A stretch of DNA of 64,000 bases, taken from the NCBI GenBank assembly GCA_036141575.1, contig JAYZXF010000011.1:109021-173020 (forward strand), read 5' to 3'. Of this stretch, positions 8,891-64,000 are shown one piece after another; position 1 is the first letter of the stretch; each line of letters opens with the position of its first letter. The position numbers and the translations under genes are program-made. The notes under the pieces are model-generated. The model made no database searches. It was given only the letters and a program-made list of their open reading frames with translations, and was not told the DNA's origin. The DNA comes from Pseudomonadota bacterium. GTDB taxonomy: Bacteria; Pseudomonadota; Alphaproteobacteria; UBA2136; JAPKEQ01.

Positions 8891-8997
8891 CTCTACAGTT
8901 CTGCAAATACGTTTTTAGTCCAGTACTCAGGCTCATGTATTGTTTATACATATCGCCTTTCATGCTTCCTAAAAACGCATTTTCGATGGCTGTAGAG
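8891..8997. repeat. Palindromic intergenic repeat, copy A
   Basis: 107-bp imperfect palindrome. Outer arms CTCTACAG / CTGTAGAG, continued by TTCTGCAAATACGTTTTT on the left pairing with AAAAACGCATTTTCGATGG on the right. The centre holds a hairpin ATGTAT-tgttt-ATACAT (8935-8951). It begins 7 bp after the diguanylate cyclase stop and may act as its terminator or an RNA-stabilising hairpin. Confidence 0.8.
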
Positions 8998-9122
8998 CGA
9001 GTCTCTCATGTTCTGAATAAACCAACATAAATCCGTAAGATTTTTGCGGGAATATATAGCCTAAATGCTGAAATAGCGTTACACTCCAGCTGTTAACACA
9101 TTTCAAATAAAGAGTACAAAGC

Positions 9123-10124
9123 ATGGCAGATAAAAAGCGTGCCTTTAGTGGCATTCAGTCTACAGGTCGCCTCACACTTGGTAACTACCTTGGGGCCCTT
9201 AAACAACACGTCTCTTTTCAGGATGCTTATGATGCAATCTTTTGCGTGGTAAACCTTCACGCAATCACAGTGCGTCAAGATCCGAAAGAGCTGATTGATA
9301 ATACGTATGACTGTGTCGCTTGGTACCTTGCATGTGGCCTTGATCCTAAAAAGGCGATTCTATTTGCACAAAGCCATGTGAAAGCGCATGCAGAACTTAA
9401 CTGGGTGCTAAGCACATTCACGCAAGTGGGTGAGCTTGAGCGTATGACGCAGTACAAAGATAAGTCTCAACAGCATAAACAAAACGTCAATGCTGGGCTT
9501 CTCACGTACCCAACGCTTATGGCAGCAGATATTCTGCTGTACAACACAGATATCGTACCTGTGGGTGAAGATCAAAAGCAGCATATTGAGCTGGCGCGTA
9601 ATATTGCTATTCGTTTTAACGGCATTTACGGTGAAGATAAGTTTGTGGTGCCAGAGCATTACCATCCACCAGTCGCAGCTCGCGTGAAAGATCTTTCTCA
9701 GCCTGAGCGTAAGATGAGTAAATCCCTACCGGGTAAAGGTTGTGTCCTGATTGAAGATGATCCTGCAACGATTCTTAAAAAATTCAAAAAAGCGACAACA
9801 GATAATGATGCTCAAGTGCGCCTAGACGCTGAAAATCAGCCAGGTATCACAAACCTTCTAGAAATTTACGCGGCAACAAAAGGCATTTCATCTGAAGATG
9901 CACTCAGCGAATTTAAAGACAGCCGTTACGGGGACTTTAAAGTGGCTGTGGGTGAAGCTGTTGCGGCTTCACTAGAGCCTGTGCAGCAGGAGTACAAACG
10001 TATTCTTGCAGATCGCGCCTTTATGGATAGTGTTCTCAAAGATGGTGCAGAGCGTGCAGCTGTGATTGCAGATGCTAAAGTTGCTGAAATTTATAAAGCT
10101 GTTGGCTTTATTCAGAAAGGTTAA
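9123..10124 (+). CDS. trpS: Tryptophan--tRNA ligase
   Basis: 333 residues, the normal length for bacterial TrpRS, a class I aminoacyl-tRNA synthetase charging tRNA-Trp. Seen: the HIGH-equivalent region in STGRLTLGNYLGAL (residues ~13-26), the family motif GEDQKQHIELARNIA, and KMSKS at 197-201. ATG at 9123. The 3' end is 5 bp before the next gene, implying co-transcription. In many alphaproteobacteria trpS follows murJ; here it does not. Confidence 0.97.
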   Translation: MADKKRAFSGIQSTGRLTLGNYLGALKQHVSFQDAYDAIFCVVNLHAITVRQDPKELIDNTYDCVAWYLACGLDPKKAILFAQSHVKAHAELNWVLSTFTQVGELERMTQYKDKSQQHKQNVNAGLLTYPTLMAADILLYNTDIVPVGEDQKQHIELARNIAIRFNGIYGEDKFVVPEHYHPPVAARVKDLSQPERKMSKSLPGKGCVLIEDDPATILKKFKKATTDNDAQVRLDAENQPGITNLLEIYAATKGISSEDALSEFKDSRYGDFKVAVGEAVAASLEPVQQEYKRILADRAFMDSVLKDGAERAAVIADAKVAEIYKAVGFIQKG

Positions 10125-10129
10125 TTTTC

Positions 10130-11104
10130 GTGGCGAGAGCAAAAAAACGTTTTTCTAAAAGCAAACTTGTAAAAGCTGAAAAGCTTGCGGTTTATTCTGC
10201 GATTCTGTTCGCAATTGGTGTTGCAATCTCTATGCTTTACGTAGGTGTTGGTGATGTGTGGGGCCATATTAAGGCACTTCCTGCATGGCTATGGGGCGCG
10301 CTTGTTTTAAGTTCTGCTGCAAACATGGGACTTCGTGGTTACCGCTGGCCGCTGTTTGTAAATAAGCTGGGGCTTAAAGTACCTCTTAAACGTATTTGGC
10401 TCTACTACCTTTCAGGTAATGCGATGGTGGTAACACCGGGTAAATTTGGTGCGGTACTCCGCCTGTGGTTCTTGCAAAAAGGGCATGGTATTCCTTACCG
10501 TAAAACACTCCCACTGATGATGATGGACCCAATTACCGACCTTGCTGCACTGCTTTTGATTGTGCTGTTTGGTAAACTTGCTGTGCCGCATATGCAGGAA
10601 ACAGCAATCTTCGTATTTGGGGCTGTCTTTATTGGTGCTGTCGCACTTATGGCGCAGCCAAAGCTTCTTTTGATGCAAATTAAACTAATGTATCGCTTGT
10701 TTGGTAAGCGTGGTAAACGTTTCTTTGCCGTGCTTCAAAAGATTGCTCGTAACCTTACTCAACTGGTTTCACCAATTGTGTTCTTGCAGGCTGTGATCCT
10801 TTCCTTCCTTGGTTGGATGGCTGTTGTTTGGGCGTTCCAGCATGTGCTTATGGCGATGGGACATGACGTGAGTTTGTCTATGGCAGCCTTTATTTATGCT
10901 CTACCAATTATCATTGGTGGTGCCTCAATGATGCCGGGCGGCCTTGGTGCTGCTGAGGCGTCTATGCTGGCGCTGCTGGCTCTTGCTGATGTACCGCTTG
11001 ATGCTGCTGTTGCAGCTGTGGCTGTTATCCGCTTTATTACGCTGTGGGGTGGTGTTGGTGTTGGATTTTCTTTGCTTCCACTGGCGGTGAAGAAGGTCAG
11101 TTGA
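10130..11104 (+). CDS. Flippase-like integral membrane protein (LPG synthase TM / UPF0104 family)
   Basis: 324 residues with about eight hydrophobic segments and a basic N-terminus (KKRFSKSKLVKAEK). The motif AGGVTPGKFGAVLR-like stretch (VVTPGKFGAVLRLWFL) and MMPGGLGAAEASM are typical of the UPF0104/LPG_synthase_TM family, whose members include lipid flippase-like domains and hopanoid or lipid transport partners. The substrate cannot be named. GTG start at 10130 with GGTTAATTTTC upstream; it lies directly behind trpS. A palindromic repeat follows. Confidence 0.8.
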   Translation: MARAKKRFSKSKLVKAEKLAVYSAILFAIGVAISMLYVGVGDVWGHIKALPAWLWGALVLSSAANMGLRGYRWPLFVNKLGLKVPLKRIWLYYLSGNAMVVTPGKFGAVLRLWFLQKGHGIPYRKTLPLMMMDPITDLAALLLIVLFGKLAVPHMQETAIFVFGAVFIGAVALMAQPKLLLMQIKLMYRLFGKRGKRFFAVLQKIARNLTQLVSPIVFLQAVILSFLGWMAVVWAFQHVLMAMGHDVSLSMAAFIYALPIIIGGASMMPGGLGAAEASMLALLALADVPLDAAVAAVAVIRFITLWGGVGVGFSLLPLAVKKVS

Positions 11105-11116
11105 TATACTCACATG

Positions 11117-11264
11117 TATAGTTATTTAAATCATTAAATAGCCACTGCTGCAAATGTTAGCTTATTGCGCTTCCAGTGCTCATGTACTTTAAGTACACTG
11201 CGCTCTGGTTCTCATAACCTATTCATTTTCGCTAGCGTCTATTGATGATTAAAAATACTATATA
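11117..11264. repeat. Palindromic intergenic repeat, copy B
   Basis: The longest copy, 148 bp. The left arm (11117-11155) and right arm (11224-11264) are complementary over about 39 bp with few mismatches. Inner boxes are CTGCAAATG and CATTTTCGC. The centre is a perfect palindrome TGTACTT-T-AAGTACA (11183-11197) flanked by CCAGTGCTCA and CTGCGCTCTGG. It lies between the flippase-like gene and dsbB. Confidence 0.85.
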
Positions 11265-11281
11265 AGAAGAAAGCTTTATAA

Positions 11282-11785
11282 ATGAAAAAGTTACTGAACT
11301 ATTTCTGGACAGAAGAACGCCTTTGGATGTTGTTTTTACTCGGGAGCCTTGGGCTTGTGATTGCAGCCTTTATTTTTGAATATGGCTTTGATGCCAAGCC
11401 TTGCAAAATGTGCTGGGAACAACGTTATGGGCATTGGGGTATGGTAGTGGTCGGTCTTATTGGCCTTAAACTTCCTATCAGTTTTTTATGGAAGCGTCTC
11501 CTGCTTCTTGTACCTGTGCTTTATAGTGGTTATGTGGGGATGTATCAATCACTGGGGCAGCTTGGTCTGGTAGAACTTCCAGCTTCATGCCGTGGTAACG
11601 CAGGCGGCCTTGCAAGTGCAGATGATTTGCTGTCTAGCTTTGAAAACTTTAAAGCTGCGCCAGATTGTGCAGCGATTGACTTTACAATTTTTGGGCTGTC
11701 ATTTGCCCAGTGGAATGTTGCCATTATGCTTGGATTTGTTCTGGTCATTGCTGCAACATTTATCATTAAACCAAGAGCGAAATAG
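11282..11785 (+). CDS. dsbB: Disulfide bond formation protein B
   Basis: 167 residues with four hydrophobic segments. Inner-membrane oxidase that reoxidises DsbA and passes electrons to quinone. The two redox pairs are present: C41-K-M-C44 after the first membrane segment and C103/C129 in the second periplasmic loop, nearly the same numbering as in E. coli DsbB. ATG at 11282 with AGAAGAAAG upstream. Many Cys-rich secreted proteins are encoded in this window and could be indirect clients. Confidence 0.93.
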   Translation: MKKLLNYFWTEERLWMLFLLGSLGLVIAAFIFEYGFDAKPCKMCWEQRYGHWGMVVVGLIGLKLPISFLWKRLLLLVPVLYSGYVGMYQSLGQLGLVELPASCRGNAGGLASADDLLSSFENFKAAPDCAAIDFTIFGLSFAQWNVAIMLGFVLVIAATFIIKPRAK

Positions 11786-11802
11786 AAAAGGGGAATAAGG
11801 GG

Positions 11803-12144
11803 ATGACTGTAATTACACTTAAAGATTACCAAAAATGGACAAATGAAACAGCAATCTACCCAGATGCTGGTACAGGTAACATTCATGAAATTATGTACTG
11901 TGCTCTTGGTCTATCAAGTGAAGCCGGTGAAATGGCAAACTACGTGAAGAAGCTGTACCGTGATGGCGACACTGCTGAAATGCGCCAGAACGTAGCGGAT
12001 GAACTTGGTGATGTGCTTTGGTACGCTGCGCGTACAGCAGAAAGCCTTGGTGTAGACCTGCAAGAGCTGATGGAAAAGAACCAAGCAAAGCTAAAATCTC
12101 GTAAAACACGTGGTAAGCTTTCAGGATCAGGAGATCATAGATAA
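11803..12144 (+). CDS. MazG-like nucleotide pyrophosphohydrolase
   Basis: 113 residues of the all-alpha NTP pyrophosphohydrolase fold. The metal-binding signature is visible as SSEAGEMANYVKK followed by DELGDVLWY, i.e. the ExxE and ExxD pattern. Likely hydrolyses non-canonical or excess (d)NTPs to monophosphates. The stop codon overlaps the ATG of mpl (TAATG), so the two are translationally coupled. The basic tail (KLKSRKTRGK) is common in this subfamily. Confidence 0.85.
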   Translation: MTVITLKDYQKWTNETAIYPDAGTGNIHEIMYCALGLSSEAGEMANYVKKLYRDGDTAEMRQNVADELGDVLWYAARTAESLGVDLQELMEKNQAKLKSRKTRGKLSGSGDHR

Positions 12145-13565
12145 TGCACATTCATGTTATCGGTCTTTGTGGTGTAGGGATGAGTGCTGTGGCCATGCTA
12201 CAGCGTGATGCTGGCCATACGATTTCTGGCAGTGATGAAGGGTTTTACCCGCCTGTGAGCGATTACCTTGCCCTTCATAAGTTTGACTTTAAGCAAGGCT
12301 ATAAAGCAAGCAACATTCCTGCACAGACCGATGCATTTATGATTGGTAAAAATGCCAAGCTGACGCCTGAACAAAACGAAGAAGTAAAAGCAGCCGTTGA
12401 AAGCGGAAAGCCAATTTACTCTTACCCAGAGCTTCTCTCTCAAGTTTCGGCAGATAAAGAACGTATTTGCGTTGTTGGGAGCTACGGTAAATCAACCTGT
12501 ACAGCGCTTCTTTCTTTCCTTCTAGAGCATGCAGGGCTGGAACCAAGCTACTTTATGGGTGCAATTGCCTCAGGTATGCCACGCACATCTAAAAAAGCTT
12601 CTGGTGAGCTGTTTGTGATTGAGGGGGATGAGTACCCATCGGCCAATGATGATGACCGTTCTAAGTTTATGCATTACGCTCCGGGTCATGTACTGATGAC
12701 AGCAGCAACGCATGATCATGTAAATGTGTTTCCAACTCCGGAAGATTATAAAGCTCCATTTATCGAGCTTGTAAAAGGTATGCCAGAAGTAGGTACGCTT
12801 GTGGTGTGTGCAGATAATGAAGAAGCTCTTGAAGTGGTGAATCGTTCTGGTAAAACAGCTGTGACATATGGTTTCTCAAAGGATGCGGATTATCATGTTC
12901 AATCTGTTGATTACGGCACAGAAAGTTTCCTACATATTTTAATGCCTGAAGGTGCAACGCTCACCTTTAAAACATCTTTGCTTGGTGCGCATAACATGCA
13001 AAACATTTGTGGTGTAGTCGCCATGATTCTTGAGAATGAATGGCTTGATTACACAGCTATTGCAGCAGGCCTTAAGGATTTTCAAGGCATTCGTCGTCGT
13101 TTGGATCGTCTAACGCCTGAGGGATCTGTGCCTGTGCATGAAGGTTTTGGCTCTTCTTATGAAAAAGCCCGTGCAGCGATTGAAGCAATGAAACTGCATT
13201 ACGCTGATAAGAAACTGATTATTGTGTTTGAGCCGCACACCTTTAGCTGGCGTAACCGTGATGCCCTTCATTGGTATGATGACGTATTTGAAGGTGCAGA
13301 GAACGTTCTAGTCTATGAACCAGCAACGCAAGGCTCAGGTAGCCATAAGCAGCTCACACAAGACGAAATTGTAGAGCGTGTAAAGGCTGCGGGCTATGAA
13401 ACTGTAGCGATTCACAATGCAGAAGATGGTTTGGCAGCGCTTTCTCCACTTGTGACAGAGGAGACGGCTATTCTTCTTCTTACATCAGGTGACCTTGGTG
13501 GCTTGATCAAAAAAATCCCAGAATGGATTAAAAATTCTACTCAAACCTTGCTGCAAACAGCTTAA
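12144..13565 (+). CDS. mpl: UDP-N-acetylmuramate:L-alanyl-gamma-D-glutamyl-meso-diaminopimelate ligase
   Basis: 473 residues of the Mur ligase family; Mpl attaches recycled tripeptide to UDP-MurNAc in peptidoglycan recycling. Seen: N-terminal Rossmann start MHIHVIGLCGVGMSAVAML, ATP loop GSYGKST at 112-118, central EGDEYPSANDDDRSKF, and the C-terminal DFQGIRRR and FEPHTFSWRNRDA regions. The ATP loop is unusual, as the family norm is G-T-x-G-K-T-T. The last ~11 codons and stop are contributed by an intergenic palindromic repeat. It could instead be a MurC-like ligase, but the start, the EGDEY motif and the C-terminus favour Mpl. Confidence 0.85.
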   Translation: MHIHVIGLCGVGMSAVAMLQRDAGHTISGSDEGFYPPVSDYLALHKFDFKQGYKASNIPAQTDAFMIGKNAKLTPEQNEEVKAAVESGKPIYSYPELLSQVSADKERICVVGSYGKSTCTALLSFLLEHAGLEPSYFMGAIASGMPRTSKKASGELFVIEGDEYPSANDDDRSKFMHYAPGHVLMTAATHDHVNVFPTPEDYKAPFIELVKGMPEVGTLVVCADNEEALEVVNRSGKTAVTYGFSKDADYHVQSVDYGTESFLHILMPEGATLTFKTSLLGAHNMQNICGVVAMILENEWLDYTAIAAGLKDFQGIRRRLDRLTPEGSVPVHEGFGSSYEKARAAIEAMKLHYADKKLIIVFEPHTFSWRNRDALHWYDDVFEGAENVLVYEPATQGSGSHKQLTQDEIVERVKAAGYETVAIHNAEDGLAALSPLVTEETAILLLTSGDLGGLIKKIPEWIKNSTQTLLQTA

Positions 13566-13655
13566 GCCATGCAGTGCTCACCTCGTGTATAAAAAATACA
13601 CGTCGGTTTGCGCGCTGAATCGCCTAAATGTTTTCGCTAAGGTTGAGCGAATTTT
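13531..13655. repeat. Palindromic intergenic repeat, copy C (overlaps the mpl 3' end)
   Basis: 125-bp palindrome. Left end AAAATTCTACTCAAACCTT then GCTGCAAAC; right end GTTTTCGCTAAGGTTGAGCG then AATTTT. Centre GTGTAT-aaaaa-ATACAC (13585-13601). The first 35 bp are inside mpl and encode its C-terminus and stop. It aligns closely with copy F along its length. Confidence 0.85.
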
Positions 13656-13691
13656 ATAGAACTTTGCTTAGAATAAAGAAAGCTTAGCTTT

Positions 13692-29414: not shown

Positions 29415-29540
29415 CAATAATTATTTATATGGGCGGAAATTTTCTTTTCTCGTCGCTGAAGTACTTTTTTGTACTCTGCGCTCCTTTAAAAATAAATTTT
29501 CGCGCCATAGCACCTGAATAGTGGTTTAAATAAATTATTG
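29415..29540. repeat. Palindromic intergenic repeat, copy D
   Basis: 126 bp between two convergent genes. Outer arms CAATAATTATTTA / TAAATAAATTATTG, inner arms GGCGGAAATTTT / AAATTTTCGCGCC, centre AGTAC-tttttt-GTACT (29460-29475). The left arm is about 17 bp shorter than the right. The right end includes the stop codon of the minus-strand methyltransferase. Confidence 0.8.
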
Positions 29541-31734: not shown

Positions 31735-31848
31735 AGGAAGGGTTAAGTGATTTTGGAGTGCCACTTGGGGTTTTAGGCACAGGGCAACCTTAACGGGATC
31801 ATCGCGATAAATGGGGGAGACAGAATGTATCTGTCTCCTTTTCTTTTT
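31735..31848 (+). ncRNA. Candidate small RNA downstream of xseA
   Basis: About 114 nt between the promoter and a strong terminator, with no open frame of note. Nested pairings are seen: GTTAAG (31742-31747) with CTTAAC (31789-31794), enclosing GTGCC (31758-31762) with GGCAC (31776-31780) and a G/U-rich 13-nt loop; then the terminator stem. It could instead be an xseA 3' UTR. I could not assign it to a known RNA family. Confidence 0.5.
31816..31848 (+). terminator. Rho-independent terminator
   Basis: Stem GGAGACAG / CTGTCTCC with 7-nt loop, followed by TTTTCTTTTT. Confidence 0.92.
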
Positions 31849-31971
31849 AATTCTACTCAGCATAACTGCAAATAAATGAGCCATTCAGTGCTCGCCTTTG
31901 TGTATATTTAATACACGGCAGGCTGCGCGCTTTTCACTCATTCATTTTCGTGAATGCTGAGCGAATTAAAA
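31845..31971. repeat. Palindromic intergenic repeat, copy F
   Basis: 127 bp starting within the T-run of the preceding terminator. Left end TTTTAATTCTACTCAGCAT then AACTGCAAATAAATGA; right end TCATTCATTTTCGTGAATG then CTGAGCGAATTAAAA; centre GTGTAT-attta-ATACAC (31900-31916). The left and right halves pair almost completely. Best-conserved relative of copy C. Confidence 0.85.
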
Positions 31972-43412: not shown

Positions 43413-43423
43413 TATAAATAAAC

Positions 43424-43550
43424 CAAATTCGCTCTGGCGCCAGCGAAAATAATATATCTTGAGAACAGGAGTGCAGTGTACTGCATTGTACATGAGCACC
43501 TGAAGCGCAAAGATAGATTATTTGTAGAACGCCAGAGTAGAGTGTCTAAA
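43424..43550. repeat. Palindromic intergenic repeat, copy G (inverted orientation)
   Basis: Outer arms CTCTGGCGCCAGCGAAAATAA and, at the right, the matching TTATTTGTAGAACGCCAGAG; centre TGTAC-tgcatt-GTACA (43477-43492). When reverse-complemented it aligns to copy B with the boxes in the same order, so the family inserts in both orientations. Edges approximate. The right end reaches 20 bp from the Nudix start. Confidence 0.8.
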
Positions 43551-48433: not shown

Positions 48434-48492
48434 GACGTGTGGGCGCTGTCAAAAATTGTGCAAGTTTTCCCCGTATTTGTTATTCTCTCACA

Positions 48493-50694
48493 ATGGATCT
48501 GTTCTCGACAACTGCTGATGTGCAACAAATGGACGAGCGTGTTGCAAAAGTGATACGTGTTATTGTGCCTCAAAGGTTGTTTAAAACGCTGGATTATAAA
48601 GTCTATTCAGAGGATGAACCTGAGTTATATTCTTGGGCGGAAGTGCCCCTCGGCATGAAAAGCACAAAGACAGTTGCTGCTCTCGTGGTAGCAATCAACC
48701 CACCAGATGCGTTTAAAAAGCTAAAAGAAGCCAAACTTCGCACAGATGTGCCAGCACTCAACCCTAAAATGGCTGAGTTCCTTTTATGGGCAGGTTCTTA
48801 TACGCTCGCGCCAATGGGTGAAGTGCTTCGCTCCCTTCTTGTTAAAGCCTCAATTCCGGATCAACCTTCTCCTGAACTTGTACTCGCTCTTACAGGTAAA
48901 ATGCCAGATAAGATGACGCCAAAGAGGCAAGATGTATTAGGTGCCTTAGATGCAGGACCTATGAATACAACGACCCTTATGGAAGCTTCAGGCGCAGGGC
49001 GTAGTGTGATTAAAGGTCTTACCCATCAAGGCTGCCTCGAATGGATCCATGCCGAAGAGGCAGAGCTTTGTGTGAATCCATCTGTTTCAATTACATTGAA
49101 TGAGGACCAGCGCAAGGCGGCTGATGCAATTTTTGGTGCGGCTCATGAGAAATCTTTCCAGCCATTCCTTCTTGATGGTGTGACAGGGAGTGGCAAAACC
49201 GAAGTTTACTTTGATGTTTTGGAAAACATGTTGGAGTCAGGTGAGGGGCAAGTTCTTTTGCTTCTTCCTGAAATTGCACTGACACCACAATGGTTAAGCC
49301 GTTTTGAATCCCGTTTTGGGTTTGCCCCAGCCGTTTGGCATAGCTCACAAGCAGAAGGCTCTAAAAATAAAGCATGGTGGAGTGTGCTTACCGGCAAAGC
49401 ACGCGTTGTTGTTGGAGCAAGGTCAGCGCTCTTCCTCCCTTATAAAAACCTAGAATTGATTGTCGTAGATGAAGAGCATGATAGTGCGTATAAGCAGGAA
49501 GACCTATTTCGTTATCACGGTCGGGATATGGCGGTGGTTCTTGCAAAGAAGATGTCGTGCCCTGTGGTTCTGGCCAGTGCAACGCCGTCTCTTGAGAGTT
49601 GGTATAACGCAGATCAAGGCCGTTACCAAATGCTTCCGCTGAAAAGCCGCTACGGTGCAGCCACTTTGCCTGATGTGGAGCTGATTGATGTTGCAGCGAA
49701 TCCACCGAAAGGGGCAAGGCACTATATGAGTGAGCCTCTGATTCAGGCCATAGGTGAAACTCTTGAGCAGGGTAAACAGTCTATTATTTATTTAAACCGT
49801 CGTGGCCATGCGCCTATGGCACTCTGCCGAGACTGTGGTGAAAAAACAGAATGCCCAAGTTGCTCGACAACATTAACTGTTCATGGCGGGCATCTACGCT
49901 GTCATCATTGTGCTTATACGATGTCTTATCCAAATAGATGTAAGAAATGTGGATCAGAGCGTATTTTGCCGTATGGCCCAGGTACAAGGCAACTTATGGA
50001 TGAGCTTGCTGAATATTACCCTGAAGCGCGTATCGCTGTAGCAGATAGTGATGCCCTCACAACCGTGAGAAAAATGAGTCAGCTGATTGAAAAGATGAGA
50101 GCTGGTGAAATTGATATTCTGGTGGGTACGCAAATGGTCGCCAAAGGCCATGATTTCCCGGATGTAACTCTGGTGGGTGTGGTGGATACGATGCTGGGTA
50201 ACACGCAGGGAGACTTTCGTGCGACAGAAAAGGCTTTTCAGCTTCTGTACCAAGTGGCAGGCCGGGCAGGCCGCGGTAAGGATAAAGGCCGTGTTCTTAT
50301 TCAAACGCTGGATAAAAACTCCCAAGCCCTTAAAGCCATTGCGACTGGAGACAGGGATGCCTTTTACGCCAGTGAAGTGAAACACCGTAAGCAGTGGAAT
50401 GATCCGCCGTTTTCTCGTTTGACAGCTTTGTTCTTTAGTGGGGCTATTGAAAATGAAGTAGTACACCATGCCAGACTCATTGCAGAGCAGATGCAGCGCA
50501 CAGCGCCTGCAGGCTATGTGGTAATGGGGCCTTCACCTATGGGGCTTGTGCGCATTAAAAACCGCTTCCGCTATATGATTTTGATTAAATCTCCCGTGCC
50601 ATCGCATGATTTTGTGCAGAAAACGCTTCTTGCATATAAGTTGCCAAATGCTGTGCGTTTGGACATTGATGTTGATCCTTTATCCCTGCTTTAG
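48493..50694 (+). CDS. priA: Primosomal replication protein N' (PriA helicase)
   Basis: 733 residues from the ATG at 48493 (MDLFSTTADV); the longer frame from 48439 crosses the sRNA terminator. Restarts collapsed replication forks. N-terminal DNA-binding domain, Walker A GVTGSGKTEVY (~229), VVDEEHDSAYK, helicase motifs and the zinc-binding insert C-x2-C...C-x2-C (LCRDCG, CPSC, CHHC, CKKC), then VGTQMVAKGHDFPDVTLV. Apparently complete. Confidence 0.96.
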   Translation: MDLFSTTADVQQMDERVAKVIRVIVPQRLFKTLDYKVYSEDEPELYSWAEVPLGMKSTKTVAALVVAINPPDAFKKLKEAKLRTDVPALNPKMAEFLLWAGSYTLAPMGEVLRSLLVKASIPDQPSPELVLALTGKMPDKMTPKRQDVLGALDAGPMNTTTLMEASGAGRSVIKGLTHQGCLEWIHAEEAELCVNPSVSITLNEDQRKAADAIFGAAHEKSFQPFLLDGVTGSGKTEVYFDVLENMLESGEGQVLLLLPEIALTPQWLSRFESRFGFAPAVWHSSQAEGSKNKAWWSVLTGKARVVVGARSALFLPYKNLELIVVDEEHDSAYKQEDLFRYHGRDMAVVLAKKMSCPVVLASATPSLESWYNADQGRYQMLPLKSRYGAATLPDVELIDVAANPPKGARHYMSEPLIQAIGETLEQGKQSIIYLNRRGHAPMALCRDCGEKTECPSCSTTLTVHGGHLRCHHCAYTMSYPNRCKKCGSERILPYGPGTRQLMDELAEYYPEARIAVADSDALTTVRKMSQLIEKMRAGEIDILVGTQMVAKGHDFPDVTLVGVVDTMLGNTQGDFRATEKAFQLLYQVAGRAGRGKDKGRVLIQTLDKNSQALKAIATGDRDAFYASEVKHRKQWNDPPFSRLTALFFSGAIENEVVHHARLIAEQMQRTAPAGYVVMGPSPMGLVRIKNRFRYMILIKSPVPSHDFVQKTLLAYKLPNAVRLDIDVDPLSLL

Positions 50695-50696: not shown

Positions 50697-50835
50697 TGCT
50701 CTCTAAAGTTTATTGAAGGAACAAACTTTCCGCAAATATGATCTTGAAAATATAGTTTCTTTGAATATTTCGCGCTTTCAGCGCTTATATAAAATCTATA
50801 TTTTCGCCAAAACCCCTTAGGGTTTTGCTCGCACG
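50697..50835. repeat. Divergent palindromic element, copy E
   Basis: After the priA stop. Boxes CCGCAAATAT and ATATTTTCGCC in the family order; arms GAAAATATAG / CTATATTTTC and centre GCGCT-ttc-AGCGC (50772-50784). The outer arms are less clear, and there is an extra hairpin AAAACCCC-tta-GGGGTTTT-like at the right. Assigned to the family with less certainty; edges approximate. Confidence 0.5.
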
Positions 50836-55458: not shown

Positions 55459-56310
55459 ATGATGAAAAAGCTAATTATATGCACTCTGACCACTTTTATG
55501 TTGATACATACCTCTTATGCAAAGCCAGAGGACTGGTTTGAGAAGGGCGAACGCCTTCATTACCTTGTGGAAATGTGGGGATGGCTCAATGTAGGGGAAG
55601 CTGAGCTTCTATTTAAGCCGCAAGATGATAGGTACACCATTCTTGCTCGGGCTTGGACAGATTCAAGAGCATTTCAATTGCGAGATCGCCTCACCACAGA
55701 AGGTATTCACTCACCTGTTTTAGACGAGGGGCCTTTTTATTCAATCAGGCAAACCATTGAGCTGAATGAAAATGATTATCGAGGTCATAAAACAATCACC
55801 TTTGATCGAAACGCAAAGATGATTCGTTACCATAATATTCGCGGCAATGAAAAGCCTGTTGGTTTTGGAGCTCCAGAACATACAAGAGATATGATTTCAG
55901 CTCTGTATTACTTTAGAAAAACACTTGGCGACCGTGAGATCAAGGTTGGGGATATGTACCAACATGCTGTCGCGCAAAATGACTATATCTACGATATGAA
56001 GCTCAAGGTGGTGGGGCAGGGTAAAATTGATGGCCATCAGGCCCTTAAAGTTCAGCCAAGCATGCAAAAGCTTAATCGTGATGGGACGCCTCTTGGGGAT
56101 GTAAAAGATCGCTGGACGATTTGGGTGCGAAATGACAAAAGTTTTGTTCCTCAGCGTATTGAAGCAAAAACAAAGTTTGGGTCATTTGTTGCAAGCCTTA
56201 AGCGCTATGGGCACCTTGATTTAGAATCACGCGTGATTCCGGAGATTCCTGAAACCGGTGAAATTATTATGGATAAGAAGAAGACAGGTTTGCTTGAAAC
56301 AGCGGATTAA
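55459..56310 (+). CDS. DUF3108 family secreted protein
   Basis: 283 residues from ATG 55459 (or 55462) with AAGGA upstream. Signal peptide (KLIICTLTTFMLIHTSYA), then the DUF3108 beta-barrel-like fold: ERLHYLVEMWGWLNVGEAELLF, ...RDMISALYYFRKT, KVGDMYQHAVAQND, DRWTIWVRNDKSFVPQRIEAKTKFGSF. Probably periplasmic; function unknown. Convergent with the small membrane gene beyond. Confidence 0.83.
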   Translation: MMKKLIICTLTTFMLIHTSYAKPEDWFEKGERLHYLVEMWGWLNVGEAELLFKPQDDRYTILARAWTDSRAFQLRDRLTTEGIHSPVLDEGPFYSIRQTIELNENDYRGHKTITFDRNAKMIRYHNIRGNEKPVGFGAPEHTRDMISALYYFRKTLGDREIKVGDMYQHAVAQNDYIYDMKLKVVGQGKIDGHQALKVQPSMQKLNRDGTPLGDVKDRWTIWVRNDKSFVPQRIEAKTKFGSFVASLKRYGHLDLESRVIPEIPETGEIIMDKKKTGLLETAD

Positions 56311-56312
56311 GC

Positions 56313-57296: not shown

Positions 57297-58013
57297 ATGT
57301 TAGATATTCTGAAACTCAGGAATTGGTCTCATACTTCTGTTGGAAGTATGGCAGCACGTACGGTGAATCATGCCCTTGAAAAAGCATGTGAAGATCGCCG
57401 CGGTCAGCGTATTCTCTTGCTTGGGTTTACAGCACCTTATGTTCACCTTTGGGAAAAAGAAGCGCATGTTACCATGGCGTATCCTTCTTGGATGGGAGCC
57501 GTACCATGGCCTGAATCTGGTATGAATCAAAGTGTACTTGTGCATGAGGACTCTCTACCATTCCAAGATGAAACCTTCGATGTGATTATTGTCTCTCATG
57601 TATTGGAGCATTCTTTCCATGAGGATGGAGTGATGGGCGAAATTTGGCGCACATTAAAGAGTGAGTCAGGTCGCCTCATTATTCTAACGGCAAATCGTCT
57701 GTCAAACTGGAGCCGTCGTGATGCGCTTTCGCCGCTCGCAAGTGGAAGGCCTTATACAGGGCTGCAAGTTTCTCGCCTTATTCGTGACGCTAACCTGACA
57801 GAACTTTCACAAAGGAGCATTCTTCATACGCCTTGTCTCAGTTTTGAAATGTTGCTTAAGCAATCAAGCTTCTTTGAGTCTGTCGGACAGGGGGTGCGTT
57901 CACCTTTTGGCGGTATCATGATGACAGAGGCGAAAAAGCAAATGTATAAAGGCTCTGTCGTGCGCCCGCTCGGCAAGCTGATTCCAAAAGTTGTGAAGCC
58001 TGTTTTAGACTAG
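57297..58013 (+). CDS. SAM-dependent methyltransferase (gloB-linked)
   Basis: 238 residues from ATG 57297; a GTG at 57279 is less likely. LLLGFTAPYVHLWEKE replaces the usual GxGxG motif I, but FDVIIVSHVLEHSFHEDGVMGEIWRTLKSESGRLIIL is a good motif IV-VI region. This gene beside gloB is a recurrent alphaproteobacterial pair; substrate unknown. The 3' end overlaps rmuC by 4 bp (convergent). Confidence 0.8.
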   Translation: MLDILKLRNWSHTSVGSMAARTVNHALEKACEDRRGQRILLLGFTAPYVHLWEKEAHVTMAYPSWMGAVPWPESGMNQSVLVHEDSLPFQDETFDVIIVSHVLEHSFHEDGVMGEIWRTLKSESGRLIILTANRLSNWSRRDALSPLASGRPYTGLQVSRLIRDANLTELSQRSILHTPCLSFEMLLKQSSFFESVGQGVRSPFGGIMMTEAKKQMYKGSVVRPLGKLIPKVVKPVLD

Positions 58014-59224
58014 GCGTCTTTTTCTTTTTTATCTTCATTCTCAATCAACTCAAGTGGTTGGCCTGAGCTTGTTTTGAAGATTTTATCAGACTGTCTGAGC
58101 GCTTCAATTTCACGCAAAGGTTTTTCTAGCTGGTTACGGCGTGTTGTTGTGAGTTCAAGGAAAGCCTTATTGCTGTCCTCAATCTTCTTCCCAACTTTAT
58201 CAATGGCATCTGTAAACTTGCCCCATTGCGCGCCAAATTTTTCAATCAGACGTAAGATTTCACCAGCTTTTTGCTCCATCTGGAAGTTATCTACCGCTTG
58301 GCGAATCACGGCAAGAATGGCGTACAGTGTAATTGGTGAACAAAGAATAACTTTCTTACCCAGAGCTGTATCGACAAGGGTACGGTCTTGATCGTGCAGG
58401 AAGCTGTAAACTTGCTCATTTGGAATAAATACGATCACGTAATCCAGTGTGTCTTGTGTGGTATCAACGTAGTCACGTTTTGTCACTTCATCTACACGGC
58501 GGCGGGCATCTGCAAGAAACTGTTTGAGGAACTGTTTCTTCTCCACTTCGCTTTCGCTTTCCATATAAGCAAGGTAGTTATCAAGAGGGAATTTCACATC
58601 CATATGTACAACGCGATTTTGTGGCATATAGAAGGTGTAGTCTGGGCGACTCTTCTTTTCTGTCTGCTGTTGCTTGAGGTAGTTAATACCTTCTTGGAAT
58701 CCTGCAAGGCGCAGAACATCTTCAGCCATGCGCTCACCCCATTGGCCACGAATTTGCGCGTTGCTTAGAGCTGATTTTAGAGCATGTGTTGTTTCGCGCA
58801 GTTGTTTGGTTTCTTCAGCGGCAGATGTGAGCTGACTTGAGAGGACATCAAACTTCGCTTTACGATCCTTCTCAATGGTTTGTACCATACCCTGTACTTT
58901 ATCGAGTTCTCCCTTCATAGTTTTAAGGGTTTGGTCGATCATGTCTTTTTTAGCGCCAAGCTCCTGCTTACCAGCCTGAGTTTTCTTGTCTAGATTTTCA
59001 GAGGCCAATGAAAGGAATTGTTCAGTGTTGCGTTGTAGAGCCTCCAAAGAGAGGGTGCTGAAGGCATCACGCATTTGAGAAATGGTTTTATCCATTTCTT
59101 CTTGTTTTTGCGAGAGGAGTAGCTCTGCCATTTTTCCGGCATCGTTACGTCTAAACCAAAGCAAGGCAAGTCCAATTCCTAGACCGCTTAAAAAACTGAG
59201 TGCTGAAGCAATAAAAATATTCAT
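58010..59224 (-). CDS. rmuC: DNA recombination protein RmuC
   Basis: 404 residues. N-terminal membrane anchor (IFIASALSFLSGLGIGLALLW), a long coiled coil (~25-150), and the RmuC nuclease-like core: IRGQWGERMAEDVLRLAGF, KSRPDYTFYMP, MDVKFPLDNYLAYMES, VIVFIPNEQVYSF, VILCSPITLYAIL. Limits certain recombination or inversion events. ATG at 59224. Confidence 0.93.
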   Translation of the reverse strand: MNIFIASALSFLSGLGIGLALLWFRRNDAGKMAELLLSQKQEEMDKTISQMRDAFSTLSLEALQRNTEQFLSLASENLDKKTQAGKQELGAKKDMIDQTLKTMKGELDKVQGMVQTIEKDRKAKFDVLSSQLTSAAEETKQLRETTHALKSALSNAQIRGQWGERMAEDVLRLAGFQEGINYLKQQQTEKKSRPDYTFYMPQNRVVHMDVKFPLDNYLAYMESESEVEKKQFLKQFLADARRRVDEVTKRDYVDTTQDTLDYVIVFIPNEQVYSFLHDQDRTLVDTALGKKVILCSPITLYAILAVIRQAVDNFQMEQKAGEILRLIEKFGAQWGKFTDAIDKVGKKIEDSNKAFLELTTTRRNQLEKPLREIEALRQSDKIFKTSSGQPLELIENEDKKEKDA

Positions 59225-59284: not shown

Positions 59285-59671
59285 TTAAAAGTTGTGATCA
59301 ATCACTTTTTCAAAGATCACTTTGTCACCACGGCGAACAAGAATATATTTATCAATGTCGTATGAGACATCGGTGAGCTCTTCTTTCTCCCAGCGTGGGG
59401 GCATGTTCATGTGTGGTGCTGAGAAATGAAGAGCTCCTTCTGCAGTGAGGTATTGTGTGACACCACCGCCCATAATACTCATAGGTAGAATATCCAAAAC
59501 TTGGATATTGCTGCCTTCATGACCAATATAGATGGTGCCCGTATCCGGTTCGTCATCAATAGAGCCTGGCAGAAAACCATTATCCTCATCTTCGGGCTCT
59601 TCAGGCAGAACGAGGCAAAGAAAACGGCCGTCATTAAATTGAAACAGTTTAGTAATTTCTAAGGTTTGCAT
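59285..59671 (-). CDS. Small acidic protein of unknown function
   Basis: 128 residues, no signal peptide, strongly acidic in the first half (LPEEPEDEDNG, SIDDEPDTG). No motif or family recognised. It lies alone between rmuC and the DUF1223 gene; the 86-bp gap to the latter has A/T-rich pyrimidine tracts but no definite signal. Confidence 0.65.
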   Translation of the reverse strand: MQTLEITKLFQFNDGRFLCLVLPEEPEDEDNGFLPGSIDDEPDTGTIYIGHEGSNIQVLDILPMSIMGGGVTQYLTAEGALHFSAPHMNMPPRWEKEELTDVSYDIDKYILVRRGDKVIFEKVIDHNF

Positions 59672-59757
59672 GTATATACTCCTGAAAAAAGAAAGAAAAA
59701 GATAAGAATCTCTATTTTTCTATCTAAAAACAGGTTTTGGAGCAAATGCTTTTTGAG

Positions 59758-60426
59758 TTATGGCAAAACTGCTGTGTAAATCGGGCCTTGATTTTGGGCT
59801 TGAATCAGAATGGCAACAGCTTCATTTTTGCCTGCTTTTTGGACAGGGACAAAGGCTTCGCCGCCTTTCCATACACCGAGCCTTTCAATAGACGTTACAG
59901 TATTAATTTTGTGAGAGCTGTTGTCTGTTCTGTATGTGACGCGCCAAAGGTCTTGAGCAAGGTTGATTTTATCGGTCTCGCCAAGAAAGAGGGTGTAGCC
60001 ATCTCTTGCTTCAGTCAGGTGAATATTTGAAATCTCTTCTTCAGATTTTTCATGGCGAAGAAGGTGCCATTTTGTTTTAAAGCTATTGCCACCATTCATG
60101 TGGTATTCACCGTTCATCACAAAGTGAGGGGTGTAGCGCACATTGGTATTTTGTAGAGCATTGTACTTTTTTTGGCGAAGGTTATTTTCAACCAAAATAA
60201 ATGGATCTTTGAGTTTACGGTTCTTGTAAATGTTGACATGGTAAGAGAGCGCAAGGCGACCATCTTTTTTTGCCATTTCTGTAAGGTTTCTATCCGCGTT
60301 CGGGCAAGACGGGCACGTCTTAGATGTAAACATCTCCAGAACATTCGGCATAAGTGTTGTGGCGTGAGAGAAAGTTGGCATAAGAAGAGGGGCACAAAGA
60401 ACAATTTTTCCAAGAGTTCGTTTCAT
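59758..60426 (-). CDS. DUF1223 secreted thioredoxin-like protein
   Basis: 222 residues with a signal peptide (TLGKIVLCAPLLMPTFSHA). Family motif VLEMFTSKTCPSCPNADRNL gives a CPSC redox pair at C38/C41 in a thioredoxin-like fold, followed by RYTPHFVMNGEYHMNG. Probable periplasmic thiol oxidoreductase; substrate unknown. It follows the coupling protein gene by 17 bp and is probably in its transcript. Confidence 0.82.
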   Translation of the reverse strand: MKRTLGKIVLCAPLLMPTFSHATTLMPNVLEMFTSKTCPSCPNADRNLTEMAKKDGRLALSYHVNIYKNRKLKDPFILVENNLRQKKYNALQNTNVRYTPHFVMNGEYHMNGGNSFKTKWHLLRHEKSEEEISNIHLTEARDGYTLFLGETDKINLAQDLWRVTYRTDNSSHKINTVTSIERLGVWKGGEAFVPVQKAGKNEAVAILIQAQNQGPIYTAVLP

Positions 60427-60443
60427 GAGTTATCTCCTTTTTA

Positions 60444-62003
60444 TTAGCCGTCCCACTTATCAAAGAGTCCCTTAAAGGCAGGGTCTTTAAAGTAAAATAT
60501 CTTCTCTGCGAGAATAGGCTTACAGCCTTGCACAAACACAAGCTGCGTGTCAAACGGCATTCGCATAACTTCATCAGGTGTCATAAGAGCGCGTGACGTA
60601 TCACTGAAGTTTTTGCTCACGTTACCACCCATCAGCTGACCTTTTTCTTTTGATGTTCCGCTGTTTTCAACTTGAATTGTTGTGGTACCCATCATGTCTG
60701 AAAGGACTTTTGCAGTTTCTACATCGTTGGTACCAAAGGCAGCACGCACGGCACAGTTAGAAAGGAATGATCCCCACTTTGGATAGTTATCCTTCAGCTG
60801 GTTCAAATCCTGGATAAACATCCACAAGGTCACACCATAACCAGCAAGGTAACCAATACCAACCTCAATGTTCTGCATGTAACCCAGTGCCGGGAACTCA
60901 TCAATCAGGAAGAGAATACGGTCTTTTGGTTGACCTTTGGCACGAATCATTGCAGCCAGCATAATACCTGTGAAGAGACGAATTACCGTACTATATACGT
61001 CCAAGTACTCAGGTGGAATAATCAGGAATAGTGAAGAGGGTTCACGTTTAATATCCAGTGGGTCAAAGTCACTACGAGATGTGATGGCATTCAGCCTTGG
61101 GCTATCCCATACCGCTGTTTGGGCTTTGGCTGTAGAAAGGACACTGGCAAGGACTTTAGGCTCTGTCGCGCTCAGCGATGCACCTGCACGCTGTACAAAG
61201 CTATTTTTAGAGCGGCACATATCCTTTACTGTGAGCTGGAAATCCTTTTGTGATTGCATGAGGAGATAGCGTACTTCACCAATATTACGTAGCGCTTTCG
61301 GGCTTTCATTGGCGACATAAAGAATAAGACCTGTGACAAGGTTTTTCGCTTCACGGTCCCAGAATGGGTCGCTTGCACCTTCAATAATAATCATGTCTGA
61401 AATCATACGCGCATCATCAAGCTCGTCTGATGTGCCTGTACGAATAAAGTCCATTGGGTTGTAACAGTTACTGTTATCGTTAAATGGAGCAAAGGTATAA
61501 ACCTTATTAAACTTTTGTCTTTGGCGACCTGCAACACCAAAGTTCTCACCCTTAATGTCATTTACAACAACGCTACCTGGGTGTGTGAGCAGGTTTGGAA
61601 TGACGTGACCTACACCTTTACCAGAACGTGTTGGTGCAAATGTCATCATGTGGCCTGGTGTGTTGTAACGAATAAACTGGCCTTTGTATCTGCCAACAAT
61701 AAAGCCTTTTTCACCAAGTAACCCTGCACGACGCAGATCCTCTGTATTAGCAAAAGAAGCCGAACCCATGGTTCCTGTTTTCTTTTTACCGGTCATACCA
61801 TCTAGGAATTTAAGGTGTTCTTCAAAACCGCGCTCACCATTAGAGCCTTTAGATTTTTGAATCACAAAAGCGGAACCGAAGATTGTTCCAATAAAGGCAA
61901 AGCCAACAAGTGTTTCAAATAGATCGAGGTGTATGGTGCTGTACACCATGAAAAGGGCGAGAACCCCGCCAATAACCGGTTTTGAAAGAATCAAACGGAT
62001 CAT
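60444..62003 (-). CDS. VirD4/TraG-type type IV secretion coupling protein
   Basis: 519 residues. Two N-terminal membrane segments (~8-48), then the RecA-like ATPase with Walker A APTRSGKG (123-130), and Walker B FLIDEFPALG (near 375), then MFIQDLNQLKDNYP. An all-alpha domain insert (~190-330) is in the usual place. A coupling ATPase would carry substrate to a type IV secretion system. No VirB or Tra channel genes are adjacent; only the TraU-like gene 39 kb away in this window. Starts ATG 62003; operon with DUF1223. Confidence 0.92.
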   Translation of the reverse strand: MIRLILSKPVIGGVLALFMVYSTIHLDLFETLVGFAFIGTIFGSAFVIQKSKGSNGERGFEEHLKFLDGMTGKKKTGTMGSASFANTEDLRRAGLLGEKGFIVGRYKGQFIRYNTPGHMMTFAPTRSGKGVGHVIPNLLTHPGSVVVNDIKGENFGVAGRQRQKFNKVYTFAPFNDNSNCYNPMDFIRTGTSDELDDARMISDMIIIEGASDPFWDREAKNLVTGLILYVANESPKALRNIGEVRYLLMQSQKDFQLTVKDMCRSKNSFVQRAGASLSATEPKVLASVLSTAKAQTAVWDSPRLNAITSRSDFDPLDIKREPSSLFLIIPPEYLDVYSTVIRLFTGIMLAAMIRAKGQPKDRILFLIDEFPALGYMQNIEVGIGYLAGYGVTLWMFIQDLNQLKDNYPKWGSFLSNCAVRAAFGTNDVETAKVLSDMMGTTTIQVENSGTSKEKGQLMGGNVSKNFSDTSRALMTPDEVMRMPFDTQLVFVQGCKPILAEKIFYFKDPAFKGLFDKWDG

Positions 62004-62072
62004 TAGATCTCTTATTTACCTAAACATATTGTTGTTATTTTCATTACAAAATCTTTTGTGCTCAGACACAAG

Positions 62073-62102
62073 AAAAAAGAGACCTGACTTCTGTCAGGCC
62101 TC
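62073..62102 (-). terminator. Terminator of the glutathione transferase gene
   Basis: On the minus strand: GAGGCCTGAC-agaa-GTCAGGTCTC (one G-T wobble) followed by six T; 46 bp past the stop. It insulates the coupling protein gene from the GST gene. Confidence 0.9.
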
Positions 62103-62147
62103 TGTGAATCAAGGGATGCGCTGTGTCTTTTAGAACGCGTTTTCTAT

Positions 62148-62804
62148 TTATTTTTTCTGACCTTGCCAGAAATTGAAGCGTTTCATTGAGTTTAGGAAGA
62201 AAGGTTGTTCTTCCATATTTTGGAGCCACTCTACGAGGTGTGGGTACGTTCCAGCTTTGAGCCAAGATACATCTTGTGCAAGGAACCAAACAAACGGGAA
62301 CATGGCAATATCAGTAAAACCTGCCTTGGCACCAGACACGTATGGCTGGTTGGCAAAAATACTGTTGAGCTTTTCACAAGTTTCTTTACATGGCTCTTCG
62401 TAAAGTTCTTCTACCGTTTTGCGCTGCTTTTTGCCGTGTACATCATCAAAGTTTACTTTATGAGGGTTGCGGAGGAAGAAGCTATTTTTAGCAAAGTCGC
62501 CATCAATAAGTTTTACAATTTCAAGCATGGCTGACTTCTCATCTTGAGATAGTTCATTCCAGCCAAATGGATCATTTTGATCCATTGCCCATGTCATGAT
62601 ATCAAGGCTTTCATCAATCACAGTTCCATCATCAAGCAGAAGAACTGGTACTGTGCCTTTTGCTGAAATTTCAAGAAAAGCAGGAGGCTTTTGAGAAAGG
62701 TTGATTTCACGGTGTCCGTACTCAATACCTGCTGCGGCAAGAGCCATACGCGCACGTGTGGCGTAAGGACAAAATCTAAAACTATGTAAAATCGGTTGGT
62801 TCAT
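62148..62804 (-). CDS. Glutathione S-transferase family protein
   Basis: 218 residues. Thioredoxin-like N-terminal domain with a CPYA motif (SFRFCPYATRARMAL), the cis-Pro GTVPVL and the DESLDI glutathione-binding segment; helical C-terminal domain. The CPYA cysteine suggests an omega- or beta-like class with thiol-transferase activity rather than a classical Ser/Tyr GST. Genes 62823-63587 upstream run the same way with an 18-bp gap, so they may be one transcript. Confidence 0.85.
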   Translation of the reverse strand: MNQPILHSFRFCPYATRARMALAAAGIEYGHREINLSQKPPAFLEISAKGTVPVLLLDDGTVIDESLDIMTWAMDQNDPFGWNELSQDEKSAMLEIVKLIDGDFAKNSFFLRNPHKVNFDDVHGKKQRKTVEELYEEPCKETCEKLNSIFANQPYVSGAKAGFTDIAMFPFVWFLAQDVSWLKAGTYPHLVEWLQNMEEQPFFLNSMKRFNFWQGQKK

Positions 62805-62822
62805 GTGTTTGATCCTTACTTA

Positions 62823-63587
62823 TTAAAATAGGTTTGTAATCTTATTGCGTAGACGCCCAAAGAACCCCGGCTTTTCTTCTTTAGGGGTTAGAACATCTTT
62901 ATCCAAAAGCCCAAGTCCAACAAGCCCTTCCTTAAGAAGGTTGAATTCACCAGTAATAGCTTCAGGGCTGCGGCTCAGTACATCCAGAATAAGGAATGAT
63001 GTGACTTGTTCTAATGTGGCGCTGCCTCCACCTAGGGGCTCACGTGTTGTTGACATGGGTACATCTGCGCTGATGCTATGCCCTCTGAGAATGTTAGGCT
63101 CAATGGCAACCCTTGTGCCTTTTTGGGTTGTCATGCCTAGCGTGTAGCGTTTGTGATAGAACGGTCTGAGCTCGTCACTTGTAGAGTTTTCAGGAACGCG
63201 CATGTTAGAGAGGTGCTGAACCATTGTGCTGACGTTGTTCTTTGTAACCGTACCTGCAAATTCAATTTTTGCATCATGCACGCCAATGCTTTCAATGTTG
63301 AGTGTGTTGCTCCAAAGTGAGAATGGATCAAATTTAACATCAATACGTGGAATATACAGAAGTATCTCTTCACTAAACTCTCCAATCCCATTGATTGTCA
63401 CACCACCAATATCCCCAGAGCCTGTAAATGGAGAGAGTCTCATACTTTCAAAGGTGACTGTTTGTTCAAGGGAGTCTTGCAAGGTATTTTGCAGGCGCCA
63501 CTCTACAAATGGATTAAATGCAAAAAAGAGCACAAGTGCGCCAAGTAGAGCAAATGTGAAAATGGTATTGAATAGGAGCTTTATCAT
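62823..63587 (-). CDS. AsmA-like periplasmic membrane-anchored protein
   Basis: 254 residues. N-terminal anchor (IKLLFNTIFTFALLGALVLFFAF), then a beta-rich domain with INGIGEFSEEILLYIPRIDVKFDPFSLWSNTLNIESIGVHDAKIEF, the typical layout of AsmA/DUF748-type proteins that bind or move lipid in the envelope. The C-terminus is short and basic (GRLRNKITNLF). Smaller than most AsmA relatives; function inferred from fold only. Confidence 0.7.
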   Translation of the reverse strand: MIKLLFNTIFTFALLGALVLFFAFNPFVEWRLQNTLQDSLEQTVTFESMRLSPFTGSGDIGGVTINGIGEFSEEILLYIPRIDVKFDPFSLWSNTLNIESIGVHDAKIEFAGTVTKNNVSTMVQHLSNMRVPENSTSDELRPFYHKRYTLGMTTQKGTRVAIEPNILRGHSISADVPMSTTREPLGGGSATLEQVTSFLILDVLSRSPEAITGEFNLLKEGLVGLGLLDKDVLTPKEEKPGFFGRLRNKITNLF

Positions 63588-63731
63588 AGGAAAACTTTAA
63601 CTCAGGGAGTGGGGATTCTCAAGCGGATAAAAACCATCATAACACAGATTTTTTAATTGCCTGAAAAATGTGCACATTTACAACAGGACATAATTGGATG
63701 TGAAAATGTACTGCCTATTTTTCGTGCAATT

Positions 63732-63737
63732 TATAAT
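63732..63737 (+). promoter_or_regulatory. -10 box TATAAT of the candidate RNA at the window end
   Basis: Perfect TATAAT; no good -35 at 17 bp. Predicted start near 63744. The rest of 63588-63731 shows nothing I can assign. Confidence 0.4.
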
Positions 63738-63743
63738 GAGAGA

Positions 63744-63905
63744 TGCGTTAATAAATTATCTTCAACTGGTAACAGGGGGTGAATATGAATCACACATCTT
63801 TGAGATAGGAGGTGATCACCAAGCGGCAAGGCTGCGGGGTCCCCCAAGTTCCTGCATTAAAAGTTTTGTCCTGTATCTCGCAAAGGCCAGCAATCGCTGG
63901 CCTTT
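63744..63905 (+). ncRNA. Candidate structured leader/small RNA with an orphan extended Shine-Dalgarno
   Basis: About 160 nt ending in a strong terminator. A mini-ORF, 7 codons (MNHTSLR, 63785-63808), has AGGGGGTGA upstream. Its stop overlaps AGGAGGTGATC (63807-63817), an 11-nt perfect match to the normal 16S 3' end, but no start codon follows. GAGATA (63802-63807) and GGA pair with TCC and TATCTC (63874-63879), which would hide that site. No known family assigned. Confidence 0.45.
63785..63808 (+). CDS. Seven-codon leader ORF (putative)
   Basis: ATG to TAG, encoding MNHTSLR, with a purine-rich site (AGGGGGTGA) 4-5 bp upstream. Its stop lies in the closing stem of the predicted RNA, so translation could alter folding. 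No codon bias typical of amino-acid attenuators is seen. Confidence 0.3.
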   Translation: MNHTSLR

Positions 63906-63907
63906 GT
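63882..63907 (+). terminator. Rho-independent terminator
   Basis: Perfect stem AAAGGCCAGC / GCTGGCCTTT with 4-nt loop and short T tail (TTTGTGTATTTT). Confidence 0.88.
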
Positions 63908-63913
63908 GTATTT

Positions 63914-64000
63914 TCACTCTACTCTCAAATGCTGCAAATATACTTTTCATTGCTGGGTTCGACTCATGTACATTTCAGTACACATCGCCTGCACGCATCA
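63914..64000. repeat. Palindromic intergenic repeat, copy H (truncated by window end)
   Basis: Left end TTCACTCTACTCTCAAATG then CTGCAAATATAC; centre TGTAC-atttca-GTACA (63967-63982). The right half is cut off by the window edge after CCTGCACGCATCA. Same orientation as copies A, B, C and F, again directly after a terminator. Confidence 0.75.

Follow-up and report, generated by a model that had tools for sequence, protein, structure and literature searches.

Palindromic repeats of Alphaproteobacteria that often start at stop codons, occupy differing sites in related genomes and may spread as folded single strands

A stretch of 64,000 nucleotides from an alphaproteobacterial genome (GCA_036141575.1, contig JAYZXF010000011.1, positions 109,021 to 173,020; this whole stretch is called the window below) carries between its genes several copies of an imperfect palindromic repeat of 105-150 bp. 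The initial annotation, made from the letters alone, had listed eight copies, and the window was scored for them, with the filters off, by a covariance model (R2) that holds 49 copies and 43 pairs (Table 1). All eight stretches were found at their places, six as clear copies and the one at 29415 as a divergent member, whereas the stretch at 50697 scored at noise level. Two boundaries moved: the copy listed from 8891 starts at 8882, and the model match at 29415, listed to 29540, ends at 29522. The inverted orientation proposed for the copy at 43424 was confirmed by an R2 match on the minus strand. When seven of the eight listed stretches (all but 63914) were folded, their z-scores relative to dinucleotide shuffles ranged from -3.2 to -5.4. 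The copy at the window edge runs on to contig position 173057, 37 bases past the window; that at 43423-43546 sits between a terminator-like hairpin 3' of the L27 gene and the next gene, and the noise-level stretch begins just 3' of the end of open reading frame (ORF) 48439-50694.

Table 1. Repeat copies in the window, with their R2 scores and the state of the orthologous site in G001, a genome of the same genus
Feature	Position	Strand	Score	Surroundings	Orthologous site in G001
Repeat copy	8882-9006	+	93.7 bits	First three bases are the TAG stop of ORF 7601-8884	Copy present, with different stems
Repeat copy	11129-11251	+	104.4 bits	Outer arms extend to about 11117-11264	Empty
Repeat copy	13531-13656	+	84.2 bits		Without copy (right flank compared by eye)
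Divergent repeat copy	29415-29522	+	31.4 bits, E 5.8e-6		Missing along with the neighbouring ORF region
Repeat copy	31847-31970	+	99.9 bits	Immediately 3' of a terminator-like hairpin	Empty
Repeat copy, inverted	43423-43546	-	92.0 bits		Clean empty site
Repeat copy cut by the window edge	63913-64000	+	91.7 bits, scored in the whole contig		Degraded stretch only
Possible relic, not a demonstrated member	50697-50835	+	12.6 bits, E 0.87 (noise level)

The genome from which the window comes (G000, the own genome below; 1.85 Mb in 19 contigs) was searched with a first model built from seven copies, which gave 57 matches at E <= 1, and with R2, which gave 65 at the same threshold, 50 of them strong (E <= 2.5e-10). 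A few of the weak R2 matches were the same palindromes read from the opposite strand, and three rows of alignment A3 were dropped before counting. At one place (L037 1499-1817; C2:94013-94331) a weak and a strong copy stand in opposite orientations with about 90 bases between them.

Outside the own genome, an exact motif pattern of the family was found in at least 118 stretches of named genomes; the matches listed come from Brucella/Ochrobactrum, Pseudochrobactrum, Mesorhizobium, Phyllobacterium, metagenome-assembled genomes of Rickettsiales and Holosporaceae, and others. When 100 of these loci were scored, 93 had an R2 match, with 101 matches in all. The titles of the seven without one (L098, L116, L136, L137, L147, L165 and L171) all lie outside Alphaproteobacteria, and the pattern seems to occur in these seven by chance; in L112, titled Coxiellaceae, the R2 match lies away from the pattern position. 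At least 33 of 385 sampled genomes of the class, with nine candidates scored in each, had a match at E <= 1e-5, and 17 of 41 genomes comprising the own genome and its relatives had one at E <= 0.001; at the latter threshold G000 carries 54 matches, G001 29, G027 48 and the remaining genomes 0-14. The family is patchily present across Alphaproteobacteria, and the exact pattern had zero matches in viral contigs.

Each folded copy forms one long imperfect hairpin. The outer stem, with its end at the stop codon, encloses in turn a small internal loop (TA facing C in the own genome), a stem B that varies, a block of fixed sequence (CTGCAAAT against ATTTTCGC) that is paired with a fixed mismatch, a variable stem C and an apical hairpin bearing CTCATGTA. 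Among the own copies as well as in other genomes, the inner motifs are fixed and the terminal stems variable, and the fixed mismatches are retained in copies across the class.

The stems vary and yet pair. In the 49 own copies, 84.1% of the pair cells were paired, compared with 65.0% in shuffled alignments and 36-41% with slid partners, and 404 cells were doubly changed, compared with 141.5 shuffled and 110-137 slid; none of 500 shuffles reached the observed values. For the 101 matches at 93 loci of other genomes, paired cells amounted to 86.5% (67.6% shuffled) and doubly changed cells to 779 (241 shuffled, 146-225 slid). Both alignments were fitted to the model, which biases these figures towards pairing. 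The compensatory variation described in the initial annotation holds in the 49 own copies, and the genome search that it had proposed returned 50 strong copies with covariation, not the listed copies alone with none. Stems B and C showed no preference for G-U pairs in the own copies, and in the alignment across the class A-C mispairs outnumbered G-U, by 45 to 7 in stem B and 99 to 15 in stem C. As 78 of the 99 A-C mispairs of stem C stem from two column pairs, selection on the opposite strand is not claimed. In five copies, L021, L029, L039 and L053 of G000 and L186 of G001, the inner part is closely similar and the outer stems differ (L186 and L029 are 94% identical over 89 bases), as if inner and outer parts had been exchanged separately.

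The position of the copies relative to genes was scored with gene ends taken from the longest ORFs, uncurated. In the own genome a gene reads towards the 5' end of the element in 32 of 49 copies, and in 20 of these 32 the sense stop ends at element positions 0-5, compared with 0 of 23 stops facing the other side (p 5e-7). The placement of copies 3' of genes, already noted in the initial annotation, is borne out, and two features go beyond it, namely the spread across Alphaproteobacteria and the anchoring at stop codons in the sense direction. Among the matches listed for the pattern-selected loci, TGCAAAT follows a sense stop at a distance of 15-45 nt in 56 of 75, compared with 16 of 56 for stops that face the opposite side. 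Among the matches listed in 95 loci, that is, the 118 listed minus 14 orthologous duplicates and nine non-alphaproteobacterial or doubtful ones (23 in all), the counts were 45 of 60 and 13 of 46 (p 2e-6). In G027, where copies were selected by the model without the pattern and 20 of 48 were examined, sense stops lay 7-16 nt outside the model boundary in 13 of 17 cases, because the arms are longer there and reach the stop codon. No account of this stop-codon rule was found in the open-licence literature searched, which left out the original RIME, CIR and Bru-RS papers.

Among the stops next to elements TAG is over-represented (22 of 53, against 133 of 658) and TGA accounts for 16 of 53, in counts that still include orthologous duplicates; the abutting stops of the own genome were 17 TAA, 3 TAG and 0 TGA. 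Local GC skew was followed by 42 of the 49 own copies, and by eight against six where the neighbours mostly run the opposite way. A replication-strand bias was considered, which is indistinguishable from gene direction in the GC skew data.

Orthologous sites were then compared in G001, which is about 80% identical to the own genome in aligned stretches. The empty sites that the initial annotation had suggested looking for were found at 11117, 13531, 31845 and 43424, and the copy at 29415 is missing together with the neighbouring ORF region. Conversely, two genes that share one base in the window are separated by a copy in G001. At one locus of 14 Brucella/Ochrobactrum-type genomes, five have the element, three have an element in the opposite orientation (G041 being judged by eye), five are empty and one was unreadable. 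Since a given site may be filled in one sister genome and empty in another, the family is mobile or was so in the past, which supports the miniature mobile element that had been one option of the initial annotation. At the Brucella/Ochrobactrum locus and the G001 site, the two loci readable in this respect, the stop codon is kept in the empty relatives, so that both show insertion next to a native stop. A palindromic target was rejected, since the arms were not supplied by the unoccupied sequence at 31845, at 43424 or at the G001 site, although the empty site of G047 at the Brucella/Ochrobactrum locus holds a short palindrome, perhaps a remnant.

G000 and G001 also share six same-site copies, of which three are of common descent (about 88% identical) and three have common flanks and motifs with different stems; a seventh pair, L041/L191, was set aside, as its left flanks were not alignable. 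At the orthologous site L027/L182, the outer palindrome is perfect in the window genome and of the canonical mismatched form in G001. The apical loop of the oppositely oriented G041 copy at the 14-genome locus (L221) contains an additional hairpin about 58 bases long, as though a second repeat had inserted into the element. Where G000 has its copy L010, G001 has no more than a short palindrome, perfect and built from element ends (L180 1426-1455), and a complete, oppositely oriented copy lies 3' of the next terminator-like hairpin.

Changes in copies already fixed at a site were followed in 18 comparisons of common descent, with 768 pair cells. Single changes that broke Watson-Crick pairs gave G-U 18 times, A-C 20 times and other mismatches 18 times; seven tRNAs used as a yardstick gave 10 G-U and 0 A-C, with a tRNA finder that itself favours pairs. 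There is little sign that pairing is repaired in place, and no sign that G-U is favoured. As single changes show no preference for G-U, the pairing was likely selected during spread and not in place, and selection on RNA at each site, which the initial annotation had considered, is less supported.

The palindromes form a single family, at differing sites in sister genomes and often starting at a stop codon, and from these data we judge it somewhat probable that it spreads as a folded single strand inserted beside stops by a putative mobilising enzyme. The folded DNA strand would be the form recognised by the mobilising enzyme, and propagation would be limited to copies with arms that still match, which would explain why the stems vary and still pair, with no G-U preference in fixed copies. 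Insertion beside the stop codon would take place in the same folded, single-stranded form. The match between the arms is probably increased further by template switching from one to the other at replication, as suggested by one site, L027/L182, where the perfect outer palindrome is what such switching would give. A broader proposal, in which the copies represent a class of alphaproteobacterial mobile hairpins that insert in sense exactly at stop codons and are recognised by shape by a new kind of mobilisation enzyme, is offered tentatively, and we incline to doubt it.

Several results weigh against spread as a folded strand. No sense gene ends on the 5' side in 17 of the 49 own copies, and the antisense position is also found in co-directional gaps (11 copies, against 22 in sense; p 0.08). 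No mobilising enzyme was found, and no consistent target-site duplication, which the initial annotation had proposed to seek in the flanks, was read by eye at the empty sites, the relatives being too distant for base-exact junctions. In the common-descent comparisons, 30 of the 768 pair cells were doubly changed yet still paired; part of these, not surely all, are alignment register shifts. Finally, fixed copies are conserved, with 92% identity in 16 pairs, where the 300 bases upstream reach 86% and the next 60 bases 70%. This conservation points to some function in place, although the constraint is weakly shown: most of the 16 pairs were chosen via the exact pattern, and three G000/G001 pairs had no excess (0.83, 0.84 and 0.90, against 0.83, 0.87 and 0.89). 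As for candidate enzymes, the Y1 (RAYT/IS200) transposase PF01797 is present in six of the 41 genomes, including G036 (14 copies) and G030 (5 copies), and is absent from G000, G001 and G027, the three most copy-rich ones (54, 29 and 48 copies). Mobilisation by Y1 is thus not needed in those three.

The position at stops could also follow from the preferences of a conventional miniature inverted-repeat transposon that a TA-cutting DDE transposase moves in trans, with TAA and TAG favoured merely as TA-containing codons. The over-representation of TAG agrees with this, as do the 17 TAA, 3 TAG and 0 TGA that abut elements in the own genome and the TA common at copy ends; as far as the cited passages go, several small bacterial repeats have terminal TA according to Delihas (PMC2229807), and IS711, which targets YTAR, inserts into Bru-RS (PMC2266754, PMC3163539). 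However, variable ends around fixed inner motifs are the opposite of a terminal-repeat element, and the copies do not have conserved terminal inverted repeats. TGA stops are used too (the 16 of 53 above), the best-read locus having a TGA stop and a junction without TA, and no consistent target duplication was read by eye at the empty sites. Such a transposon is an improbable source of the pattern, if one worth keeping in mind. The strong folding, the sense orientation directly 3' of stop codons and the conservation of fixed copies above that of the upstream coding sequence (16 pairs pooled) would instead suit an RNA hairpin of the 3' untranslated region, selected for messenger stability, 3' processing or termination and spreading only incidentally. 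Against it, neither the single changes nor the own copies' stems B and C favoured G-U, several copies lie past a terminator-like hairpin or antisense to both neighbours, and the same gene in sister genomes does without a copy, so we consider this explanation unlikely.

The covariation itself might arise incidentally, when template switching rewrites an arm to match its partner, with no recognition of the folded form. Such a process is described for RNA hairpins in the part of the literature cited here (PMC8794818), and the perfect outer palindrome of the window genome at L027/L182, facing the canonical mismatched one of G001, could have arisen in this way. Free correction of the arms would, however, erase the fixed mismatches that are kept across the class, and it leaves the spread and the stop-codon position unexplained; as the sole cause it is very improbable.

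Further features of the window and other loci were recorded. The ORF of a MurC/Mpl-like ligase (12144-13565) runs into the 13531 repeat, from which its last residues and stop codon derive; its G001 counterpart has a different end, with a terminator-like hairpin 3' of the gene. The terminator-like stretches 55714-55741 and 57999-58026 are 86% identical over 28 bases. L024 has at 356-608 a match to Rfam Ysr141 (38.6 bits, E 1.2e-7), for which the gathering score, 196, is far higher. An Rfam search of the window returned no family at gathering score, and at E <= 5 the only matches near a copy in four loci were three weak leader or antisense ones, all in L043.

Several described repeats invite comparison with the family. 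Bru-RS1 and Bru-RS2 were reportedly described by Halling and Bricker in 1994, and the CIR repeats of Caulobacter are said to have been described by Chen and Shapiro in 2003. REPs are 20-40 bp long and have a GTAG tag. ERIC, RUP and RPE have terminal inverted repeats, with target duplications in ERIC and RUP, and RPE often lies inside genes. Integron attC sites are recognised as a folded single strand, their stems varying while the unpaired bases are fixed, and lie 3' of stop codons.

Bru-RS are palindromic intergenic repeats of 103-106 bp in Brucella, with 222 profile matches in B. melitensis according to the cited part of the published account (PMC2267715). In that partial description they resemble the present family in size, form and genus, Brucella species carrying many of its members, and model and BLAST matches in genomes titled Brucella and Ochrobactrum measure about 83-120 bases; of a stop-codon position, covarying stems or a wide spread that description gives no account. 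The Brucella members are probably the known Bru-RS repeats, the two being likened by size, genus and form and not by sequence. At lactate-permease loci (Bru-RS being reported 3' of lldP), none of the 16 scored of 17 had a match, in Brucella species other than those reported and for a mobile element; likewise, there was none at 30 P-type ATPase loci (reported 3' of zntA), again in other Brucella species and with zntA not singled out.

The CIR repeats, of about 110 bp, are intergenic in Caulobacter and Brucella with TA at their termini, as the passages of PMC2229807 have it, and are similar to the present copies in length, in intergenic location and in this terminal TA. In the same passages, however, they consist of two arms joined by a linker with GANTC in the loop, whereas the present family is one long hairpin supported by covariation. 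GANTC was not enriched, occurring in 7 of 49 own copies (17.9 in shuffles) and in 28 of 101 matches of other genomes (36.3), and membership in CIR was rejected on these counts and on the single-hairpin build. Like the REP/RAYT system, in which structure matters for the enzyme by the cited part of PMC3733652, the family consists of palindromes 3' of genes; unlike in that system, the copies are longer, and G000, G001 and G027 lack the Y1 transposase family. ERIC, RUP and RPE, of about 100-150 bp and stem-loop form and thought to be mobile in the cited passages of PMC2229807, differ by their descriptions, as the present family has variable ends and fixed inner motifs. Of the ERIC-type likeness seen in the initial annotation, the size and stem-loop form stand, and the closest named relatives are alphaproteobacterial repeats and not ERIC, from which the family is set apart by description. 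By analogy, the proposed recognition as a folded strand, the varying stems, fixed bases and position 3' of stop codons may also recall attC sites, unlike which the present loci show no cassette arrays.

Small palindromic repeats of bacteria have long been observed, mostly without a known way of moving. The present family offers three handles, namely stems that pair despite their variation, a constant position at stop codons, and filled and empty sites between related species, by which the question of their movement becomes testable. Its location suggests a mobile DNA that lands where harm is small, at the extreme end of a gene, and, if this is true, the family would represent a type of mobile DNA that targets the ends of genes.

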